From contig QQVP01000088.1 of NCBI GenBank assembly GCA_003389215.1, positions 1 through 64,000 on the forward strand: a stretch of 64,000 nt of DNA, given 5' to 3'. The notes beneath the pieces are model-generated. The model had not been told where the DNA came from. It saw only the letters and a program-made list of their open reading frames with translations, and searched no databases. A program made the position numbers and the translations under genes. Shown piece by piece: positions 904 through 24,396 of this stretch (the first letter of the stretch is position 1; each line of letters starts with the position of its first letter). This DNA comes from Planctomycetota bacterium. Its GTDB lineage: Bacteria; Planctomycetota; Planctomycetia; Pirellulales; UBA7805.

Positions 904-2223
904 TCACTCGCGCCCGTAGAGCCGATCTGCGAAGTCGAGATACCGCTCCCAGTCGTAGCGGATGACGTCGTGGCCGCCGCTGCGAATGTGGTAGCCGATC
1001 GTGTGTCCGACCGGCGTATCGACGGCCGGCAGGTCGTCGACGCCGAGTCCCCGTTTGCCCAGCAGCTGGTAGGCCGGTTCGGCCGCCTTGGCGGCCAGAA
1101 ACTCGCCGCGCGGATCGGCCCAATGATCCTCGACGGCGCTGGCGATGTAGACTCCGCGCGGGGCGACCAGCGAAATGAGCAGATGCTGGTCGACCGGTAG
1201 CTCGTCTTCCTTTTCGTTGTAGTCGCGAAACCGCGCGCAGAACCAATGCGGAAAGTTCGTGTTGATGTGAACCAGCCGCTCGCCAAAGCGGCGCCGCGAC
1301 AGGGCCGCCCCGCCGCAGCCGGAGTTGTTCGAAATCACCAGGGCCACGCGCTCATCTTGGGCCCCGGCCCAGAGCGCCGTCTTGCCCAGGCGGGAATGCC
1401 CCATGATGGCGATCTGCTCGCGATCGATCGTTTCCTCGGCGGCCAAGAGGGTGACCATTATTCGCGTACCCCAGGCCCAGGCACCGATGGCTCCGCAGTC
1501 GTCGGGTGCGCGCGGCGATGCGTCGGCCTCTTCGTTCTCGTTCGTTCCGTGGAGCAGCGGATGGACGCCGTTCCGAAAGCCATCGTCGAAGTCGGGGTCG
1601 AAGTCGCCGTAGTAGACCGTGGCCAGGGCATAGCCGCGCTGCAGGATCATCTCAACCGGCCAGCGCCCGCGACTGCCGCCGCGGGCTTTTTCATTGGCTC
1701 GGTTGTTTACGACCCCGCCCCCTTTGTCATTGGCGATCCACGACTTGCTCAGCCAGATGCCCGGGTCGCGATGCACGGTGTGATTGCCGCCGAAGTTGAG
1801 TCCGAAGAAGACCGGCACCGGCGGCTCTGCCTGGTTCGGCAGGTACAGCAGCAGCTCGATGCGCGAGCGATTCGGGTCGCCGTCGAGCTCGATGGCGATT
1901 TGTTTGCGCGTCGCGGTGCCGCCCAGGGCCTCGCGATCGATCGACTCTTCGACGACCTGATACGGCACGTCGATCGATGGGGTCGTGCCGTAGACGTGCT
2001 GTTCGAAGAGCTCGAGCAGCTCGCCGCGGCGACGCGTGCTCCACGCCTCGGCCGAGGTGACCGTTGTGCCGTCGCGAAAGACCAGCACCTCGGGCAACTG
2101 GTACTCGGGGACCTGACTCTCGTCTTTGTTGAAGCCGGGGAACTTGGCTTCGCTGGGAGTGCCGGAGATCGTCATCAAGAGGGTGAGCCCCATGAAATGA
2201 AGTGCGATCGATCGCAGTCGCAT
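904..2223 (-). CDS. Secreted carbohydrate esterase (CE15 glucuronoyl esterase-like alpha/beta hydrolase)
   Basis: 482-aa ORF (904..2352). GHSRLGKTALWAGAQDERVALVISNNSGCGGAALSRR nucleophile elbow, FFGLNFGGNH, C-terminal GGHDV. Start chosen near MRLRSIALHFMGLTLLMTISG signal peptide; exact start uncertain. Confidence 0.75.
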   Translation of the reverse strand: MRLRSIALHFMGLTLLMTISGTPSEAKFPGFNKDESQVPEYQLPEVLVFRDGTTVTSAEAWSTRRRGELLELFEQHVYGTTPSIDVPYQVVEESIDREALGGTATRKQIAIELDGDPNRSRIELLLYLPNQAEPPVPVFFGLNFGGNHTVHRDPGIWLSKSWIANDKGGGVVNNRANEKARGGSRGRWPVEMILQRGYALATVYYGDFDPDFDDGFRNGVHPLLHGTNENEEADASPRAPDDCGAIGAWAWGTRIMVTLLAAEETIDREQIAIMGHSRLGKTALWAGAQDERVALVISNNSGCGGAALSRRRFGERLVHINTNFPHWFCARFRDYNEKEDELPVDQHLLISLVAPRGVYIASAVEDHWADPRGEFLAAKAAEPAYQLLGKRGLGVDDLPAVDTPVGHTIGYHIRSGGHDVIRYDWERYLDFADRLYGRE

Positions 2224-2538
2224 GGCATCGCTCGTGCGGAGAGGAAACTTGCCGGAGAGTTGTCGGATAAACGTTCGCATCGCCGCCGGCATGACCGCGA
2301 CGGCCCGTGGCAGCGTCCTGCTAGTTCTACCCGGCCGACGTGGTGCAAACAAATGGTCTGCCTGGAGCGTGGCGCGTGGCAGGTCGGGGCTTCAACTTGC
2401 GGCTGCTGGCGGGCTGTTTTAAACTCATGGCGGTGTGTGCGAGGCCGCATCTGGACGTCTTAGCTGCGTCGGTGGCCAGCCAGCCGCGCGTCCTTCCCTG
2501 CCCCGCCCGTCCCCTGCCCGCCTTGGAGTGACTCGTCG

Positions 2539-3948
2539 ATGAAAGACCAGCCCCAGCCGTCGTCTTCGTCCGCATCCGACACGACCGATCGTCGTCGCTT
2601 TCTCAAGACCACCGGGGCCGTGGCCGCCGGGGCGATGGTCGCTTCCGCCGCCGCTCGCAGTCGCGCCAACGACGCCAACGAAGAATTGATCGGGGCCTTC
2701 GTCGGCTGTGGTGGCATCGGGCACCACCACCTCAACGAGATCATCAAGCTGAATCGCTGCAAGATCGCCGCCGTGTGCGACATCGACGACAGTCGCTCGG
2801 CCCGCTTTGCCAATATCTTGGAAAAGAAGATGGGCCACCGCCCCATCGAGTGTCGCGAGTACGAGCGCGTGATGGACATGCCCGAGGTCGACTTTGTCGT
2901 CGTGGCCACGCCCGATCACTGGCACGCCATTCCCACGATTGCCGCCTGTGCCGCGGGCAAGGACGTCTATGTCGAGAAGCCCTGCTGCCACAACATTCGC
3001 GAAGGCCGCGCCATGGTCAATGCCATGGAGAAGTACAAGCGGGTCGTCCAGGTCGGTACCCATACGCGGAGCGCGCCGCACATGCAGCAAGCCCGCGAGT
3101 TCGTTCGCTCGGGCAAGCTGGGCCAGATTACCAAGACGCGGACCTTCAACCGCACGAACATCACGCCCTATGGCATGGGCGTGGCCAAGGATTCCGATCC
3201 GCCGCCGAATGTCGACTACGATCGCTGGCTCGGTCCCGCGCCAAAACGGCCCTTCAACCGGCAGCGATTCCACGGCAGCTTCCGCTGGTTCTTCGACTAT
3301 GCGGCGGGGCTCTTGGGCGACTGGAACGTACACCTGCAAGACATCGTGATGTGGACGATGGATACGCCCTCGCCGGTCAGCGTCTCGGCGGTCGGCGGCA
3401 AGTGGGCGTTGCAGGATGCTCGCGATACGCCCGACACGCTCGAGGTCCTCTACGAGTTTCCCGGCACCGACATGAATCCGCAATATGTGCAGACCTATTC
3501 GATGAGTTTCTGCCACAGCAAGTACGATCAGAATCGCGGCCAGGGCATCGGCGTCGAGTTCTTTGGTACGAACGGCTATCTCTACACCAACTGGGACGAC
3601 GGCTTCCGCGTCGAGGGCGATCCGAAGAATCGCCACCGGCTGGAACTCGGCCAGCGGATCGAGAGCTTCGAGGTCAAAGGCACGCGCAACTCGTACGACG
3701 AGCACATGGCCAACTTCTTCGATTGCATCCGCACCCGCGAGCGACCGATTGCCACGCTCGAGTCGCACTTCAATACGGCGATCTGTTCGCACTTAGGCAA
3801 CATCGCCATGAAGGTCGGCACGCGGCTCTACTGGGACGCGGTAGACGAGCTGTGCTACCACGACGCGGAGAAGACGAAGCCGCACGCAGAGGCTAACGCG
3901 ATGCTCGGCCGCGAGAATCGTGCCGGCTACGAATTGCCGAACGTGTAG
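2539..3948 (+). CDS. Gfo/Idh/MocA family oxidoreductase with Tat-type signal
   Basis: DRRRFLKTTGAVAAGAMVASAAA leader, GAFVGCGGIGHHH, DVYVEKPCCHN. Confidence 0.9.
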   Translation: MKDQPQPSSSSASDTTDRRRFLKTTGAVAAGAMVASAAARSRANDANEELIGAFVGCGGIGHHHLNEIIKLNRCKIAAVCDIDDSRSARFANILEKKMGHRPIECREYERVMDMPEVDFVVVATPDHWHAIPTIAACAAGKDVYVEKPCCHNIREGRAMVNAMEKYKRVVQVGTHTRSAPHMQQAREFVRSGKLGQITKTRTFNRTNITPYGMGVAKDSDPPPNVDYDRWLGPAPKRPFNRQRFHGSFRWFFDYAAGLLGDWNVHLQDIVMWTMDTPSPVSVSAVGGKWALQDARDTPDTLEVLYEFPGTDMNPQYVQTYSMSFCHSKYDQNRGQGIGVEFFGTNGYLYTNWDDGFRVEGDPKNRHRLELGQRIESFEVKGTRNSYDEHMANFFDCIRTRERPIATLESHFNTAICSHLGNIAMKVGTRLYWDAVDELCYHDAEKTKPHAEANAMLGRENRAGYELPNV

Positions 3949-4040: not shown

Positions 4041-7000
4041 ATGAGTCCCAAACGCGGCAAGAAGCGCGCCCCCGAGCCTGCCCAGCCCAAGTCTTCGAGC
4101 TGGTGGGTCCTGCCCGTCGTCGTGCTGGTCGTCGGGGTGGGCGCGATTCTCTACGCCTTGAGCGGCGATGCGGATCGGAGTTCCGCGCGGCCCGATTCCG
4201 GTAGCGGTTCGACGCAGCCGGCGCCCGTCGAGGATGACCTGGGCCTGGCCACGCAGATCGGCACACCGCCCGCCAGTTCTTTGTCGACCTCGCCGCCCGT
4301 CGAGCTGGCCGACTCGGGCGTGATCGAATTGAGCACCGAGCGGAGCTGGCAGGAGATCGACGACCCGACCACCGACGGTTGGCAGACCGAGGTGATTCAC
4401 GAGAAAATCAAGAAGCAGCTCGACCGGCTGGGCAAGTTGATCGTCGGGGAAAAGAAAGCGGAGGAGGCGAAGGTTGCGCGACTCGTTGCCGACGATTTTC
4501 GCGGCACGCCGCTGCGGCCGGCGGAGCGCGACACGGTCTACGAGCAGGGGGGGCTGATCATCGAGCGGACCTCGCTCGCGTCCCTCGTCGAAGCGGCGCT
4601 CGACCGCCAGGGAGCGTCCGGCTTGGTGTCGGCAATCGAAGAGCTGACGGCACCGCTGGCCGAAGGCAGCAACCGCCGCTACGAGTTCAAGGTCGTACGG
4701 GTCGATCCCGACGGCGATGGGGTCGAGACCGAGCAGTTGCTGTCCCTTTCGGCCCGCACCCCCACCGGCATGGTCGAGCAACACGCCACCTGGGTCGCCC
4801 GGTGGTCGGAGCCGAACTCGAAGCAGCCGAAGTTAAGTTCGCTTCGCGTGACGCGCTTCGAGGAGACCCGCAGCGTGCAGGCCAGCGGCCCCTTGCTCGT
4901 CGACTGCACGGCCTCGGCGCTCGGCGGCAACGAGAGTTTCGAGAAACAGATCTTACGGGGCCTGAACCACTGGCTCGATCGCACGCAGTTCCGCACCGTG
5001 ATCACGATGATCGGTGCCCCAGGCATTGCCGTGGGCGACGTTAACGGCGACGGACTGGAGGATCTCTATCTTTGCCAGGAAGCAGCGGTGCCCAATCGGC
5101 TGTTTCTTCAGCAACCCGACGGCACGGCCCGCGACATGTCGGCAGCCTGGGGAGTCGACTGGATTGATGAGAGTCGCGGCGTGTTGCTGGTCGATCTGGA
5201 CAACGACGGCGATCAGGACCTGGTCGTCGCCACGCCGGGTAACCTGGTGTTGGCCGCGAACATCGAGTCGGCTCGCTTCGAGGTGCGGCGCGTGCTGCCG
5301 ATTCACGAGGATCCGTCGTCGCTTTGTGCCCTGGACTACGATCTCGACGGGCGGCTGGACGTTTACGTCTGTGCCTATCATCCCGATCAGCTGCTGAGCA
5401 AGCAGGGAAGCGTGTCCGTCGGCGTGGCCCGTAGCGAAACCGTGTTTCACGATGCGAACGACTCGGCCCCCAACCAGATGTTCCGCAACATCGCAACGTC
5501 GGCCTCCGACTGGCAGTTCGAAGACGTGACGGTCGCAATCGGCCTGGACGAGAACAATCGCCGCTGGAGCCTGGCGGCCGCCGCCGAAGACTATGACAAC
5601 GACGGCGACATGGATCTCTATGTGGCCAACGACTACGGTCGCGACAATCTCTATCGCAACGACGTGGGCGAGGACGGACAGCGTCGCTTTGTCGAGATCG
5701 GTCGCCAGGCCCGGGCCGAACAGGCTGCCAATGGCATGGGCATTACCTGGGGCGATTACAACGGAGACGGCTGGTTGGACGCTTACGTGAGCAACATGTG
5801 GTCGTCGGCTGGTCACCGGGTGACGCGACGTCCCCAGTTCATGCCCGCTGCCGACGATCAATTGCGTCGTCGCGTCGAGCACTTCGCGGTGGGCAACTCA
5901 CTCTTGAAGAACCAGGGCGACGGACTGTTTGTCGATCGCAGCGCCGCGGCCGGCGTGGCCCGCGGTCGCTGGGCCTGGGGTAGTCAGTTTGCCGATCTGA
6001 ACAACGACGGCTGGGAGGATCTGATCGTCGCCAACGGCTATATCACGACCGAAGACACGGGCGACTTGTGAAGTTTCTACTGGCGACACGTGGTGTCGCG
6101 AAGTCGTAGCGACGAGGCGTCGGCCGCCACGGACGTGGCACGTCGCCGCAATAACGACCTGGCCATGATGGTCCGTCAGGGTCGCTCGTTCAGCGGGCGG
6201 GAACGAAATTGTGTGTTCCTGAATACCGCCCGGGCCTCGTCAGAAGCGACCGGCGCAGCGGCGACTGTTGAAGACGCGGCGACGGGACCGCGATTCGCCG
6301 ACATTTCCGCCGTGAGTGGGCTCGACTGGCCTGACGATGGCCGTGGCATTGCGATGGTCGATTGGGATGCCGACGGCGATCTCGACGTGTGGTTTTCCAA
6401 CCGCAATGCACCGCGGTTGCGGTTGATGCGCAACGAGTCGAAGTCGGCGCTGCGGAGCGTCTCGCTTAAGCTGGCTGGCAACGGCAGCAATACGAATCGG
6501 GATGCGATCGGCGCCCGAGTCGAGGTCGTTGTGACCGAAGGGGGCCCGCGGCGGTTGTTGCGAACCTTGAGGGCAGGCGAGGGCTTTCTCTCGCAGTCGA
6601 CCAAGTGGCTGCACTTCGGCGTCGGCTCCGCGGCGGAGATTGAGCGGGTTCTGGTTCGCTGGCCAAATCGCGATGGGGCCGCCGGCAACGTCGAGGCCTT
6701 TACGGGCGTCGCCCCGGGGGGCCGCTACGTGCTGCGACAGGGCACGGGCGCGGCCGAGATGGTGTCGCCGCGCGCCGCCGTGAAGCTCAGCCCGCAGAAA
6801 GTCGAGTTGCCCAAGCCCGCGTCGTCGATCCGCGTGGCGACGATTTCCAACTTGCGATTGCCGCCGCGCGAGTTCCGCGACAATCGCGAGCAGCGGCCCG
6901 TCGTGGTCGGGGCTGGTCGCACGGTGTGGATTAATTTGTGGGCCAGCTGGTGCAAGCCGTGTCGCGAAGAGTTGGTCGAGATGAAGCGTCGCGAGGCGGA

Positions 7001-8153
7001 TCTTCGCGCTGCGGGCATCGACGTCGTGGCCTTGTCGGTTGACGGCATCGACAAGGAACGTGGCGACGTCGATGCGGCCAAGGCATTTCTGTTGAGCCAG
7101 TTGCGGTTTCCGTTTGCGGCTGGCGAAGCGGACGAACGGGAGATCGAGTTTCTGCAGTCGGTCGACAGCAAACTTGTCGCGCTCCAGCGACCGTTGCCTG
7201 TGCCGACCAGCTTTCTGATCGCGCCTAGCGGCGATGTCGCCTATATTTACAAAGGACGGGTGACGGTAGACCAGGTTCTCGAAGACGTCCGCACTCCGCG
7301 CGAGACGATCGCCGAGCGCTGGCAGGCGGCGGCCCCACTCGGCGGCACCCTGATCGACGTGCCGGGTACGCGGGCTTATGCCGCCCGATTCGAAGCGACA
7401 CAGCACTATCGACTCGCGCTCGACATGCTGGCTGCCCAGGCCCTGCCGCTAGCGACGGACAATCTTCGCCGTGCGATCGAACTCTACGAACCATTCGCCG
7501 AGGCCCACAGTCAGCTGGGCTCGGTCCTCGCTTTGCAGAGCGACATGAACGGAGCACGGGTGGCTCTACAGCGGGCGGTCGAACTCAATCCGCTGTTGGC
7601 CTCCGCCCGCTATGGCCTGGTCCAGCTCGAGGTGATCGAGGGTCGGCTTCATGCGGCGGTAGCGCAGCTGCGCGAGGCGATTCGCGGCAACGGCGAAGAG
7701 ACGTTTCGCAACGCGCGGCTCTTACCGCCTTCCGCGGCGGACGACCCGGCCCGGCAACAGCTTCGCCAGCGCATGGTGGTGGTCCATCGCGACGTGGCCT
7801 GGCAGATGGCGACCGCGGCGGACGAGTCGATGCGCGACGGGGAGGCCGCGGTCCGCTGGGCCGAACGGGTGGTGGACGCGACGTCCCGGCGAGAGCCAAA
7901 CGCACTGATGACGCTGGCCGCTGCCTACGCGGAGACAGGCCGCTTCGACGAAGCCCTGGCGTCCCTTGCCGAAGCGCGCAAGTTGGTCGAGACACTCCCG
8001 GCCACTCCGCCTGCTGCCGGCGGCGGCCAATCGAAGGACGCCAGCGGAGCACGGGCCCAACTGCTCGCCGAGATCGCGGACCAACAGTCCGCCTACGAAG
8101 CGGGGAAGCCGTTTCGCGAGAATGTCGGGTCGGCCGACTCGCCAGACCGCTAG
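4041..8153 (+). CDS. Candidate selenoprotein: TM anchor + VCBS/FG-GAP repeats + ASPIC/UnbV + TlpA/redoxin + TPR, Sec at TGA 6069-6071 (ORF track shows 4041..6071 and 6090..8153)
   Basis: The two ORFs are in the same frame, separated by one TGA: ...VANGYITTEDTGDL[TGA]SFYWRHVVSRSRSDEA.... FG-GAP repeats (DVNGDGLEDLY, DLDNDGDQDL, DYDNDGDMDLY, DLNNDGWEDL) precede it; GRERNCVFLN, DWDADGDLDVWFSN, WASWCKPCREEL and TPRs follow. Paralogue 10604-14671 is interrupted identically. Confidence 0.8.
6072..6099 (+). promoter_or_regulatory. Candidate bacterial SECIS (bSECIS) element
   Basis: GCGACAC (6083-6089) / GTGTCGC (6093-6099) directly after TGA 6069-6071; apical loop ~18 nt downstream of TGA and containing G. 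Confidence 0.65.
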
Positions 8154-9430: not shown

Positions 9431-10330
9431 TTACCGTCCGCCGCGTCGGCGCAACCAGCAAAGACCCACAAAGCCCACCGCGGCGAGCACGATTGTCGAC
9501 GGTTCGGGAACCGCGGTGAGAGGCACCGGCCGGGTGCCCAGGGCGTCGACGAGTTGGCTCAAATACATGCGGGCCGCCCCGCCGTCCTGCGAGTCGAATC
9601 CGCTGAACGAGAACTCGCGATCGAACAGGCGATCCTGATTCGGCAGATCAATCGCGCCGGTGGCCATCAGGGGTGGCAGGCCGTTGGGGGTCACCGCCAG
9701 GGCCTTGTCCAGATGGTCGAGCGAAACAGTGTGGCCAATCTCATGGGCCAACGTGCCGTTGATGGCGTGGGTGGTGAAGCTCAGGTTGCCCGAGGTCAGC
9801 GCATTCGGCGGCGTCAGGAAGCCGAGGCCATTGATGCTGTCGGTAAATACGCTGCCGACGACAATGCCGTTGGGAATGAAGATCGAGTGGTTGCCGGAGG
9901 AATCGCGAACGGCGTCCTGAAACGCCTGACCCAGCGTGTTCGCCGAGGGCTTCACGACGCCCGTACCGACCAACATGTAATAGAACTCGGTGTCGCCGTT
10001 GCTCGGCGCGGTGCCGACGTCCCCGATCACGAAATCGATATCGAGTTCGTGTCCGTCAGGAATAGGACTGAGCGGATTCTGGCCCACGGTGGGAATGTCG
10101 TGGTAGTCACGCTCGAGCTCGCTGAGGATCGAGTTGTAGAGCGTGGTGCGATTGGCCGTCGTGTCGGCAAACCCGAACGACGCAATGTCGAAGAAACCGA
10201 CCTCACCGCCGATAATGTCCGGCGTGACTGGCTCGCCGAAATCCTTGAAGTCGACCACGATCGTGAGAGCCTCGGCGCGCAAGGGGAACAGCAGAAGTCC
10301 CAGGAGAAGTAGCGTTATCCGGGCTCTCAT
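9431..10330 (-). CDS. PEP-CTERM-anchored metzincin-like metalloprotease
   Basis: Signal peptide MRARITLLLLGLLLFPLRAEA; HEIGHTVSLDH (HExxHxxxxxH); C-terminal VPEPSTIVLAAVGFVGLCWLRRRGGR. Confidence 0.85.
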   Translation of the reverse strand: MRARITLLLLGLLLFPLRAEALTIVVDFKDFGEPVTPDIIGGEVGFFDIASFGFADTTANRTTLYNSILSELERDYHDIPTVGQNPLSPIPDGHELDIDFVIGDVGTAPSNGDTEFYYMLVGTGVVKPSANTLGQAFQDAVRDSSGNHSIFIPNGIVVGSVFTDSINGLGFLTPPNALTSGNLSFTTHAINGTLAHEIGHTVSLDHLDKALAVTPNGLPPLMATGAIDLPNQDRLFDREFSFSGFDSQDGGAARMYLSQLVDALGTRPVPLTAVPEPSTIVLAAVGFVGLCWLRRRGGR

Positions 10331-10603
10331 CGTTGGCCATACTCCAGAGGGTGTGCGAGCCGCAGCCGGCCGCCATTGCAGAAGAAATGCAGCAACGGGC
10401 TGTGGTGATTCCCCGCCGGCCCTGAACAAAGCACATCTTCGCGGCTCGGGCGAGTCCCTTCATGATAGCTGAAATGGCGCCCTCGGCAACGATTTGTGCC
10501 TGAAATCGACCCACCAATGGCCAGCCCGACCCATTTGCTGGTCCTGGGCTGGAAGTCGAACCCCGCCCTCGGGCCATCCCAAGGAGCCGTGAGAACGTCG
10601 CAA

Positions 10604-13600
10604 CTACTGACCGCGCCGAGGTTTCCCTTCGCGATAGAGCTGCAGCTCGCGCTCCAAAGCCGCCCGGTCGATCGAACCGATCCGGTCCTCGGCCGGGCTT
10701 TCGAAGGTGGCCAGGGCCCGCAACTGAGTGGCCACGGCGTCGTCGAAGCGGCGACTCTCGGCGTAGGCGGCCGCGAGCAGGCGGAGTGCCTCGACATCGG
10801 CGGCGTCGGTCGCGTCGACGAGTCGTTCGGCCCAGCGCACCGCCTCGCGACCATTGCGCAACTCGGCTACCGAACCGGTCGCCAGCTGTCGAACGACGGC
10901 AAGCTGCAGTTCGAGCTGCTTCCGCCATTGCGGGCCTGGCGACGAGGAGCGATCACCGCGGAAGCGGAGCTTCTCGAAGGTCGCATCCGGCTCGTAACGG
11001 ACAGCCTGAAGCAGGTGCCGATTGGCAGCCGGCAGGTCGCCCCTCTCGACGAGCAGGCTTGCCAGGTTCAGATGTGCCCAACCGAGCGTGGGATCGAGCG
11101 CGACCGCGCGTCGCAGGTGCGTTTCCGCCAGCTGCGGCTGACGCTTGAGCAGGTAGAGCGCGCCAAGACGATGATGCGCGGCCGCGAATTCGTCGTGGTA
11201 GCGGAGTGCCTGTCGGTAACAATACTCAGCGTCGTCGACGCGATGGGGTATTTCAACAAGCAGAGCGCCGCGACGGTAGAAGACCGTTGCCTCATAGGCT
11301 TCGGCCGTGCTCTCGACGCGGGGATGCTCGATCGCCCGGCCCGACACCGGGGCCGAGGCGAGCCACCGCTGGTGCCGACTACGACTGCCGTGGGTCACAT
11401 CGGCCAGGAGTTGGTCGACGGGCAGCCGGCCCTGGTAGATGACGGTGAGTCGACCTTCACCGTCGAGCAGGAAGCTGCTGGGAATCGAGAGCGGTCGGTT
11501 CAGCGCCGTGAGCCAGCGATCGTAACCCTCGAGCGCCTTGAGCATGTCTTCGCCCAGGCGCTCGCTGGCAAAGGGAAACCGGAGCTTGGCCAGGACTTGA
11601 TCGGGGCTGGCCGAGCTGCCCGCTTCTGGAGACAGATGGTCGACCGAGAGGGCGACGACCTGGATGCCGGCGGCGCGGAGCTCCGCGGCCCGCTGGGTGA
11701 GTTCCACGAGCTCTGCGCGACACGGCTTGCACCAGGTCGCCCATAGGTTCAGCAAGAGAGGCTTTCCCGATCCGCCGTTTACCACGACGTCATTATGGCG
11801 GCTACGAATCTGCAGCTTGGGCAAGCGGAACAGGGTGACCAACGGGATGCGGGCCTCGGACGAGTCGGGCTGAACTTGCGGCGGCCCGACCGCGAGTGGC
11901 ACCGCGTGTCGTAGCGGTTCGACGGGGACCGCTTGGCCGCTTCCCTCGACAAGCCGGTAGCGACCATTGATCTCGAGGTTCTCGAACACCTCCTCTCGAG
12001 TGTCGCGACCGGCTCCGTCGTCCGCAGCGCGGCGCGGCCAGCGGACGACGACCCGCTCGATGCGACCTTGGGGAACTTTCTCCGGTTCGCCGAGCCCGAA
12101 GTTGAGCCACTTACTCGACTGCGAGATGAATCCCTCACCCGCCTTAAGCGTCTGGATGTGCGGCGTCGGCTCGCCCGGCAGATAGACCTCTACCCGGGCC
12201 CCGATGGCGTCGCGATTGGTCGACGTGCCGCTTCCCACCAACCGCAGGGCAAGAAAGGCGTTCGACGTTTCCGCATCGTTTCTGAGCAATCGCAAACGTG
12301 GCGCGTTCCGATTCGAGATCCAAAGATCGAGATCGCCGTCCTGGTCCCAATCGACGCGGGCCAGTCCACGTCCGTCATCGGGGAAGTCGATGCCCGCCAG
12401 GGCCGAGACGTTCGCAAAGCGAGCCTCACCCTCCGCGGTGGTTCGGATGTTCAGAAACAGACAGTTGCGTTCCCGTCCGCTGAAGGAACGGCCCGACCGC
12501 ATCATTTCCGAGAGCTGACGGTGCGATTGCCGCACGTTGTCACTCGCTTCCTCGTCGCTGGTGCTGGCAGATTGCGACACGACCTGTCGCCAGAAGAAGC
12601 TTCACAAGTCGCCGGTGTCTTCGGTGGTCATGTAGCCGTTCACCACGGCCAGGTCTTCCCAGCCGTCGTTGTCCAGATCGACAAAGGCATTGCCCCAGGC
12701 CCAACGTCCCATGGCCACGCCGGCCGCCTCGCTGGCGTTGGCGAAGGTGCCGTCGCCGCGATTTCGCAGCAGCGTGTTGCCCGAGGCGAAGTGTCGCAGT
12801 CGGTCGCGAACGACGGCCGAGGCGTCGGGCTTGAAGGCGCGCTGCGTGGTCACGCGACTGCCCGCGGAGGAGAACATGTTCGAGATGTAGGCGTCCATTT
12901 GCCCGTCGCGATCGTAGTCGCCCCAAGCGACGGCCATTCCCGCGGCACTGCTCTCCACGGCGGCCTCATCGCCGACGTCGACGAAGACGCGCTCACCGTC
13001 CGCGATTGCGTCGTTGCGGTAGAGATTGTCGCGACCATAGTCGTTGGCGACATAGAGGTCGACGTCGCCGTCGTTGTCGAAGTCTTCCCAAGCCGCGGCC
13101 AGGCTCCAGCGGCGATTGTTCGCGTCGAGTCCGACTTCACGAGTTACCTCGACAAAGGTGAGCGGTTCCGCGTCCGTCCCGACATTGCGAAACAGATGGT
13201 TCGGCGCGGCGTTGTTGGCGTCGTGCAACACAAACTGGGGCAGGGCGGCCCCCATCGAGGCACCCGTAGAAGTCTTCAGCAATTCGTTGGGCTGATAGAT
13301 GCAAACGTAGATGTCGAGCCGGCCGTCGGCGTCGTAGTCGGCCGCGGCGAGCGAAGTCGCGTCCTCGTTGATCGGCAGCACGTCGTGCAGTTCGAAACGA
13401 CGGCCCGCGTCGTTGGCCGCGATCACCAGGCCTGCGCGAATTGCCACCACGAGATCCTGGTCGCCGTCGTTATCGAGATCGACCAAGAGCGCGCTGCGGG
13501 CATCTTCAATCCAGTCGACCCCCCAGTCGGCCGCGACGTCGCGCAGGGTGCCGTCGTCCTGCTGCAGGAAGAGGCGGTTTGGCAATCCCGGATCCTGGCA

Positions 13601-14671
13601 AAGATAGAGATCGTCGCGACCGTCGCCGTTCACGTCGCCCACGGCCACGCCGGGCATGCTGAACAGGTTGAGCATGGTGCGGAAGGGAATTCGCTCGAGC
13701 CAGTGATTCGCCCCGTAGGCGAGTTGTCGGTCGTAACAAGGATCGGCGGCCAAGGCGGCCTGCGTGCAATCGACCAACAGGGGCGTCGAACGTGCGACGG
13801 TCGACTGTTCGAAGTCGTCGACATCGATAGACTGCAAGCGTGGCTGGTCGTCGTCGACGTCGAAACGCCAGGTCATGTGCCACGTGGCGTGCTGTTCGAG
13901 GTTGCCCGATGCCCGCGGGGCGAAGAGCGAGAAGAGCTGCTCGGTGTGGACCAGTCCGTCGGCACCGGCCGGGCGGATGCCGACGACCTTGAACTCATAA
14001 CGGGCGGGCGACTCCTCGTCCGTCGGCGCGTCAGTCAAGTAAGGAAAGTCCTTGTCGAGCGCGGTGGCTAGCCCCGCGGCTCCGCGATAGACCGCAAGCT
14101 CCGCCGAGGTGTTGGCGGCGCCGGAATCATGCGGTTGCTCGGCCGCCCGCTCCACCGTCAGCAGCGGCGTCCGATGCACCGTGACGCGAGGCGTGGGCAC
14201 CAGGCGAGTGCAGACGAAGTCCTCGTCGACCAGTTTGCCCAGGTACGAATCGCGCTTGGCGGGCACGACGATCGCCTTGCCCAGTCGCTTCAGCTGGCTC
14301 TTGATGTGCCGATGCTGGGCCTCGGTCGTCCAGCCATCGGCCTCCGGATCGTCGACCTGCTGCCAGTCAGCTTCGTCTCCCGTTTCCTCACCTGCGGCAA
14401 CCACTCGAGTGACCCTGCTGGAGCCGCCGGTCGCAGCGGGAGTCGTCGCCCCGATCGCCGCGGGACCCGCCGCATCCCGGTCGATCGGCGTGGACGTCGT
14501 GGGAGAGTCGCCACGGTCGCTTGCCGGGCGGGCTGCCAGCCAGACGCCGAGTAGCAGCGCGACACCCACGACCACGACGGCGATCCGACCCCCGCTCCAA
14601 TTCACCCGCGACGGCACTCGGTCGGCCGGCGGCGCGGTGCGATTGGCTCGGTTCTTCTTGCGACGTCCCAT
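10604..14671 (-). CDS. Candidate selenoprotein, paralogue of 4041-8153: TM + FG-GAP + ASPIC/UnbV + redoxin + TPR, Sec at TGA 12604-12602 (ORF track shows 12602..14671 and 10604..12580)
   Basis: In-frame ...VNGYMTTEDTGDL[TGA]SFFWRQVVSQSASTSDEEAS...; same domain order; WATWCKPCRAELVEL redoxin motif; C-terminal TPRs. Confidence 0.8.
12574..12601 (-). promoter_or_regulatory. Candidate bacterial SECIS (bSECIS) element
   Basis: Minus strand: TGA-AGCTTCTTCTG-GCGACA-GGTCG-TGTCGC; 6-bp perfect stem with GGU-initiated 5-nt loop 18 nt after TGA. Confidence 0.7.
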
Positions 14672-23337: not shown

Positions 23338-24396
23338 CTAAGAATCGCGCAGGACGAGGGATGCGTCCTGCTGCTCTTCAACGTGGCCGATGATAACGGC
23401 CGCGGTCGCGCCGGCATTCTTGGCCAGGGCTACGGCCTCGTCAGCCCGATCGGGCGGCAGGCTGATCAGCAACCCGCCCGACGTCTGCGCGTCGAAGAGC
23501 AACTCGAGTCGTAAGGGATCGACGCCCGATGCGATCCGCGTGGTGGCCTCGGCAAAGCCACGGTTCGAGGCGCTGGCTCGGGTCATGTAGCCGGCCTGGG
23601 CCAAGGACAGCGCGCCGGGAAGCTCCGGCACACGGGCCACGTCGATGACCACCGTCACGCCGCTGGCCTGGGCCAGTTCGTTGGCGTGTCCGGCCAGTCC
23701 GAAGCCGGTGATGTCGGTGACCGCATGGGCAGCCGCGGCGTGAGCGGCGTCGCGTCCGATCGAGTTGAGCTGCGTCATCGAGTCGACCGCCGCCTCGAGC
23801 ACCTCGTCGGGGCAGCGTCCCGCCTTGAAGGCGGTTGTGATGAAGCCCGTGCCGATCGGCTTGGTCAGTAGCAGCACGTCGCCGGGTTTCGCCTCACGAT
23901 TGGTCAACAGGCGACTCGGCTCGACGGTGCCGGTCACCGCGAGGCCGAATTTGATTTCCGTGTCGCGGACCGTGTGGCCACCGACGACCACGGCGCCTGC
24001 CTCCTGCACCTTCTCGGCGCTGCCGCGGAGGATCTCTCCGAGGATGGACAGCGGCAACTTGTCGTCGGGGAAGCCAACCACGTTGAGCACGGTCGTGGGC
24101 GAGCCGCCCATGGCGAAGACATCGCTCAGCGAGTTCGCGGCCGCGATGCGGCCGAACGCGACCGGGTCGTCGACCAGCGGCGGAAAGAAATCGACGGACT
24201 GGACGACGAGCAGATCATCGCGCAGCCGATAGACCCCTCCGTCGCTGAAGTCTTCAGGTCCGACGACGAGGTTCGGGTCATCGGATCTCGGCAAGTCGCG
24301 CACCAACTGTGCGACACCCTCTTGGGGCAACTTGCCGGCTCATCCGGCACAGCTGGCGTAGTCAACGAGCCGCTTCTGGCGGCCAAAGAGTCCCAT
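23338..24396 (-). CDS. selD: Selenide, water dikinase, Sec-containing (TGA at 24342-24340)
   Basis: In-frame read-through from ATG 24396: MGLFGRQKRLVDYASCAG[TGA]AGKLPQEGVAQLV..., matching the SelD active-site pattern C-x-G-[U/C]-x-x-K; body AAANSLSDVFAMGGSPTTVLNV, VVGGHTV, TDITGFGLAGHANEL, LLFDAQTSGGLL. ORF track starts at TTG 24330, after the Sec codon. Confidence 0.93.
24289..24339 (-). promoter_or_regulatory. Candidate selD bSECIS element
   Basis: Minus strand after TGA: outer dyad CGGCAAGT/ACTTGCCG and apical hairpin CGCAC-AGTTG-GTGCG whose loop starts 32 nt after TGA with G at loop position 2. Confidence 0.5.

Follow-up and report, generated by a model that had tools for sequence, protein, structure and literature searches.

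The UGA codons at position 6,069 and, on the opposite strand, at position 12,604 of the 64,000-nucleotide stretch of planctomycete DNA analyzed here (the window) appear to be decoded as selenocysteine (Sec), which would make the two genes that contain them members of one selenoprotein family and their products self-contained Sec/TlpA reductases. We place the probability of this reading at roughly 80%, in the absence of direct chemical evidence. By every computable criterion the protein is a selenoprotein, save that its cysteine (Cys) homologues are only distant; selenium in the protein has not been measured. We count the family among the selenoproteins because of its conserved UGA, its SECIS hairpin and the accompanying Sec machinery. 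Reading the UGA as a plain stop codon halves each protein, and would leave up to ten genes per genome misdescribed in common environmental bacteria. Features are summarized in Table 1.

Table 1. Features of the two selenoprotein genes and of selD in the window.
Feature	Position	Strand	Basis
Selenoprotein gene, paralogue A, 1370 aa with Sec677	4041..8153	+	ORF, Pfam/NCBIfam domains, homologues
N-terminal membrane anchor, residues ~22-41, WVLPVVVLVVGVGAILYALS	4104..4163	+	hydropathy maximum 2.5 at residue 23; predicted only
FG-GAP beta-propeller (CRTAC1-like), residues ~317-660	4989..6020	+	PF13517 1.1e-35; fold match 9etn
Putative Sec codon TGA (Sec677)	6069..6071	+	TGA at 197/197 Sec-type sites; AF2 model
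SECIS hairpin GCGACA-CGTGG-TGTCGC (GCGACACGTGGTGTCGC), 11 nt past TGA	6083..6099	+	conservation, covariation, TGA scan
Cys724 of ERNC motif, candidate resolving Cys near Sec	6210..6212	+	Sec vs non-Sec row counts
UnbV/ASPIC domain, residues 822-893	6504..6719	+	PF07593 1.7e-14
TlpA/ResA-like thioredoxin domain, W970-C971-K-P-C974	6903..7313	+	Pfam/NCBIfam, fold and profile matches
TPR region	7458..8000	+	Pfam TPR matches
Selenoprotein gene, paralogue B, 1355 aa with Sec690	10604..14671	-	split ORF, domains
SECIS hairpin of paralogue B, GCGACA-GGTCG-TGTCGC	12574..12590	-	TGA scan, fold comparison
Putative Sec codon TGA of paralogue B	12602..12604	-	TEDTGDL-U-SFFWRQVV
selD with in-frame TGA 24340-24342 (Sec-containing SelD)	23446..24372	-	Sec machinery member

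The open reading frames at 4041-6071 and 6090-8153 share one frame, are separated by a single TGA, and when joined encode 1370 residues. A first-pass annotation of this DNA had reported this split, with sensible protein on both sides of it. Its coordinates proved exact, and the joined product carries a predicted membrane anchor, an FG-GAP propeller, an UnbV/ASPIC domain, a TlpA-like domain with a WCKPC motif, and TPR repeats. FG-GAP repeats followed by UnbV/ASPIC, both over their Pfam cut-offs, qualify the protein as CRTAC1-like, while a thioredoxin fold with WCxPC qualifies the later domain as TlpA/ResA, its redox activity itself being inferred. Since a Lys/Arg-rich start precedes the predicted anchor, the bulk of the protein probably lies outside the cytoplasm; the topology inferred is single-pass, membrane-anchored and probably periplasmic. 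What the first-pass annotation overlooked, in an otherwise correct observation, is paralogue B, which lies 2.5 kb downstream of paralogue A on the opposite strand and is split in the same way by a TGA at the equivalent place. Using the central 205 residues as query, we found ten family genes in the source genome, each with one TGA, and no full-length matches in that genome beyond these ten. A PEP-CTERM protein is encoded between the two selenoprotein genes (9431-10429, minus strand), and the neighbours include a Gfo/Idh/MocA oxidoreductase (2539-3948, plus strand) and a glucuronyl-esterase-like protein (904-2352, minus strand).

The same codon interrupts the homologues. A search of the taxonomic family returned 38 matches in 7 of 10 genomes (ten of them from the source genome), each with exactly one stop, a TGA, and all 94 matches of an order-wide search likewise contained one TGA. 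Over all loci gathered from Planctomycetota, Verrucomicrobiota and Acidobacteriota, 197 unique homologous sites were TGA and none was TAA or TAG, so that the TAA or TAG in orthologues that would have told against Sec did not materialize. Named carriers are Planctomycetota, Verrucomicrobiota (Roseibacillus, Akkermansiaceae) and one Acidobacteriota metagenome-assembled genome (MAG). A match was present in 103 of 395 genomes drawn from the phylum, in 52 of 297 drawn from the one to which the Acidobacteriota MAG belongs, and in only 2 of 340 drawn from that of an Akkermansiaceae MAG; the phylum identity of these draws was inferred from their centre records. Some carriers in the Acidobacteriota draw, among them G1131, G1207 and G1237, have the gene on a contig of several megabases and may be isolates. 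The family also occurs in records titled Flavobacteriaceae and Proteobacteria (L136, L149), for which misbinned contigs are a likelier explanation than transfer.

The hairpin following the TGA, described in the first-pass annotation as GCGACAC/GTGTCGC, is located 11 nt past the codon as claimed, and a window-wide count rules out chance. Both strands together contain 1401 TGA triplets. A 6-bp stem closing a 5-nt loop begins exactly 11 nt after 13 of them, and GU stands at loop positions 2-3 in just two cases, those of the two proposed Sec codons. Across 129 unique homologous sites, GU was present at these positions in every one, GGUCG being the commonest loop, and all six base pairs formed at exactly 11 nt in 111. 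The covariation score for 32 diverse sites was 0.279 compared to 0.106 after shuffling (none of 500 shuffles reached it), and versions slid along the sequence scored at most 0.145; these 32 rows were picked to include variants, and their percentages are not those of a random sample. Double changes occurred at 3 of the 6 pairs (pair 4, AU to GC and CG; pair 6, AU to GC; pair 2, CG to AU). In the full set, pair 4 was formed in 125 of 129 sites; 20000 shuffles gave 110 on average and never more than 118. From codon -1 to codon +10, synonymous codon entropy was only 0.44 of the expected value, compared to 0.95 elsewhere; TTG encodes the Leu that precedes the TGA in 123 of 128 cases, and GTG encodes Val+8 in 117 of 119. 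Such freezing of synonymous codons around the TGA indicates that the RNA is under selection independent of the protein.

The hairpin resembles the SECIS element of E. coli fdhF in its 11-nt spacer, its 17-nt upper hairpin and its GGUC loop. It differs in that the stem is a plain 6-bp helix lacking the bulged U and the 5-nt loop is GGUCG or CGUGG, and formate dehydrogenase H (FdhF) itself is unrelated to the Sec-bearing protein. The folding energy of the lone hairpin was unexceptional (z -0.5 to -1.2), as was that of fdhF, and Rfam contained no matching SECIS family. Two variants were observed: a divergent Sec subgroup with the motif KPDG-U-SCLWRAVV (L071 1948-1950; L237) carries GGGCTGT-CGTGTC-ACAGCCC from 13 nt past the TGA, and L123, L136 and L229 have a hairpin whose loop is 3 nt long, the sequence in L136 and L229 being GCGACA-GGT-TGTCGC.

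A sense codon occupies the Sec site in 38 homologues, every one of which is a single open frame. The replacements are Ala (7), Glu (7), Gln (4), Arg (4), Asn (4), Gly (3), Ser (2), Asp (2) and Cys (5), counts that exclude six HMM matches in which the Sec column held misaligned repeats; Trp was found at the site in none of the homologues. None of the non-TGA homologues that were inspected showed the GGUC hairpin at 11 nt. The five Cys forms group together in a single distant clade (DYCTTFWRHDIY) separate from all other homologues, and the 33 nearer homologues all carry non-Cys residues. An impression, drawn from L206-L223 and L255-L266, that no Cys homologue exists was overturned by this clade. 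On a midpoint-rooted tree of 155 rows, from which the SECIS-coded columns were left out, the distribution of Sec needs six changes, five of them forced by supported branches. Under the reading with the fewest assumptions, Sec would be ancestral in the ingroup and would have been lost about five times; an origin by change from Cys to Sec is an inference that is subject to the midpoint rooting and the long Cys branch. Unrelated non-Cys residues without a stem-loop had been named as evidence that would refute Sec. Such homologues do exist, 33 in number, but on the tree they appear as later losses in which the TlpA cysteines are also gone.

An AlphaFold2 model of residues 285-1102, built with 99 homologues, reached a pLDDT of 92.8 and a pTM of 0.94. 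In the model, Sec677 is predicted to be the first residue of a helix spanning 677-687 (model numbering 393-403), and Cys724 to begin the next strand. The first position of a helix often lowers the pKa of Cys or Sec in thioredoxin-like enzymes. The best match in the PDB was murine CRTAC1 (9etn; fold E 4.9e-26, profile 1.5e-31), followed by TlpA/ResA. The protein shares the propeller and UnbV fold of CRTAC1 and other ASPIC-UnbV FG-GAP proteins, whereas its Sec-bearing insertion is unmatched in the profile alignment to 9etn, no anchor, TlpA domain or TPR is matched, and CRTAC1 is without Sec. With Bradyrhizobium TlpA (1jfu, 4txo, 4txv) and ResA it shares an anchored extracytoplasmic thiol reductase domain with WCxPC. 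The partners with which the known TlpA forms mixed disulfides, ScoI and a cytochrome oxidase subunit II, are separate proteins (PDB titles 4txo, 4txv); here, the Sec-bearing candidate partner is instead fused into one chain. A TlpA/ResA-type thioredoxin domain is likewise found in the UGC-containing TlpA, Redoxin and Prx-like selenoproteins (PMC13188914 Table 1; NF041054 WAxxUGC), and NF041054 weakly matched the TlpA domain of protein P0001 (22.1 bits; cut-off 300). Unlike these, the present family has a plain WCxPC in its TlpA motif, with Sec ~294 residues upstream in the propeller insertion.

Among proteins with a TlpA domain, every one of the 179 Sec forms that could be read had an intact CxxC, compared to 1 of 25 non-Sec forms, the remaining 24 having lost it; one further Sec form was left out owing to an ambiguous base in CxxC. 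In the aligned full-length set, none of the 90 Sec rows lacked either TlpA cysteine, whereas at least eight of the nine non-Sec Acidobacteriota rows had Ala, Ser or Pro in place of the first. A non-Sec clade of six rows (Arg, Asn, Glu) stops short of the TlpA domain, which its Sec relatives of the same clade possess. When loss of the whole domain was counted, 4.6 of 5 independent tree pairs were concordant and none was opposite, although with only about five independent Sec losses on the tree the sign test failed to reach significance (median p 0.06, > 0.05). Taken together, these comparisons, which are of sequences alone, demonstrate that Sec and CxxC were lost together. They support an internal Sec/thioredoxin redox relay such as the first-pass annotation had suggested, with the path of the electrons inferred and neither that path nor the substrate shown, and they render a selenium-thiol electron relay within one chain directly testable. 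Eight Sec rows in basal clades of the tree have no TlpA domain, indicating that Sec can work without it. A group of short Sec forms that seemed to lack the domain did not hold as such: with wider flanks, a C-terminal TlpA domain was found in 7 of 10 and was absent in three. Cys724, the cysteine of the ERNC motif, occurs in 93 of 122 Sec rows compared to 1 of 33 non-Sec rows; its absence from the other 29 led us to reject it as an obligatory partner of Sec, and it remains an optional one.

We propose that SelB and tRNA-Sec decode the UGA under the direction of the 17-nt hairpin 11 nt downstream, placing Sec at the N-terminus of a helix that would be inserted between two strands of one blade of the CRTAC1-like propeller. 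The TlpA/ResA-like WCxPC of the same chain probably keeps Sec reduced; the usual electron source for a TlpA domain is a DsbD/CcdA-type protein. Sec would then attack or reduce an extracytoplasmic substrate, which has not been identified, the whole acting as a self-contained Sec-dependent reductase. In most members the ERNC Cys may pair with Sec as a selenenylsulfide, an inference made with no Sec-Cys distance measured, and the TPR repeats may dock partners, which is likewise inferred. Topology, electron flow, Cys724 as a partner and the substrate are all matters of inference only. A different role for a decoded Sec is unlikely, albeit not to be dismissed: it could serve as a metal ligand, or the UGA as a selenium-dependent translational switch between full-length and propeller-only protein, with no TlpA relay. 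Such a role would suit the residues that stand in for a lost Sec, which in 33 of 38 cases are other than Cys (Ala, Glu, Gln, Arg, Asn, Gly, Ser or Asp), with Cys in only 5 distant ones; ions can also bind near FG-GAP loops. However, neither a switch nor a plain ligand predicts that Sec would be lost alongside the TlpA CxxC and the ERNC Cys, and the distant Cys clade hints at chalcogen chemistry.

Selenocysteine decoding requires no machinery that the source genome lacks among the genes sought: selA, selB and selC, whose presence the first-pass annotation had proposed to check, were all found (SelA 554.8 bits, SelB 370.9 bits, tRNA-Sec 69.6 bits with a UCA anticodon), and the "Sec-type selD" that it had noted is indeed present with one in-frame TGA. 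On another contig, selB is directly followed by the adjoining selA on the same strand (G000:C6:22432-25841), with tRNA-Sec on C45. The source genome has four selD copies, each with one TGA, which is unusual. Across 298 genomes of the order (selA called at E <= 1e-60), selA was detected in 32 of the 35 that carry the family compared to 62 of the 263 that do not; in well-assembled genomes only, the figures were 24 of 24 and 53 of 186, respectively (Fisher p 2e-12). Retention of the selenocysteine machinery in these bacteria may be due in large part to this family. Insertion of some other residue, through a reassigned code or through SelB-independent readthrough, is very improbable: readthrough signals may be hairpins too, but this one has the geometry and loop of the fdhF SECIS, the machinery (including a TGA-containing selD) is present and selA tracks the family across genomes, no homologue has Trp at the site, and the SelA and SelB frames of the source genome contain no internal TGA. 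Equally improbable is a pair of proteins, with the propeller ending at the TGA and a second gene starting from the in-frame GTG at 6090. That GTG lies inside the hairpin with no Shine-Dalgarno-like AGGAGG ahead of it, the start would fall mid-helix, and all 38 non-TGA homologues run on as one continuous frame with a sense codon, from which we conclude that the fusion is the functional unit. Although a lone in-frame stop in a long open frame looks like a pseudogene or a sequencing error, that explanation is already refuted, as the first-pass annotation had anticipated in preferring Sec, by the recurrence of this TGA, and of no other stop, in the ten paralogues of the source genome and at 197 sites across three phyla, together with the frozen codon choice and covarying hairpin beside it.

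We found no earlier report of the family in the literature, annotation in RefSeq and GenBank being outside the scope of this search. An inventory of May 2026 covering 119 families has no FG-GAP/ASPIC-UnbV/CRTAC1 or DL-U-SFxWR entry (PMC13188914 Table 1), no NCBIfam r20 model scored over its cut-off for this protein, and no such family is named in the deep-Sep paper (PMC12013277) or the GOS study (PMC2398784). The text of a planctomycete genome paper (PMC4807772) does not name it either, though a listing in its table S9, which holds candidates from two planctomycetes, is not excluded. CRTAC1-family FG-GAP genes have been described beside hydrazine-synthase-like genes in other bacteria (PMC12758564). 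We consider it likely that these genes represent a large, multi-copy selenoprotein family of Planctomycetota, Verrucomicrobiota and Acidobacteriota, a single genome having as many as ten copies, in which Sec sits outside any thioredoxin fold on a propeller-inserted helix, is served by a fused thioredoxin domain, and gave way on several occasions to residues other than Cys, CxxC disappearing with it in nearly every case. With Sec outside thioredoxin-type motifs and replaced by residues other than Cys, searches for Cys/Sec pairs would tend to miss the family. The deep-Sep authors state that their method may misidentify selenoproteins without Cys homologues, and note that glycine reductase selenoprotein A (GrdA) was once thought to have none (PMC12013277). 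The present family resembles GrdA in that its close homologues are likewise without Cys, and differs from it in that distant Cys homologues are known here (L230, L232, L305, L306).
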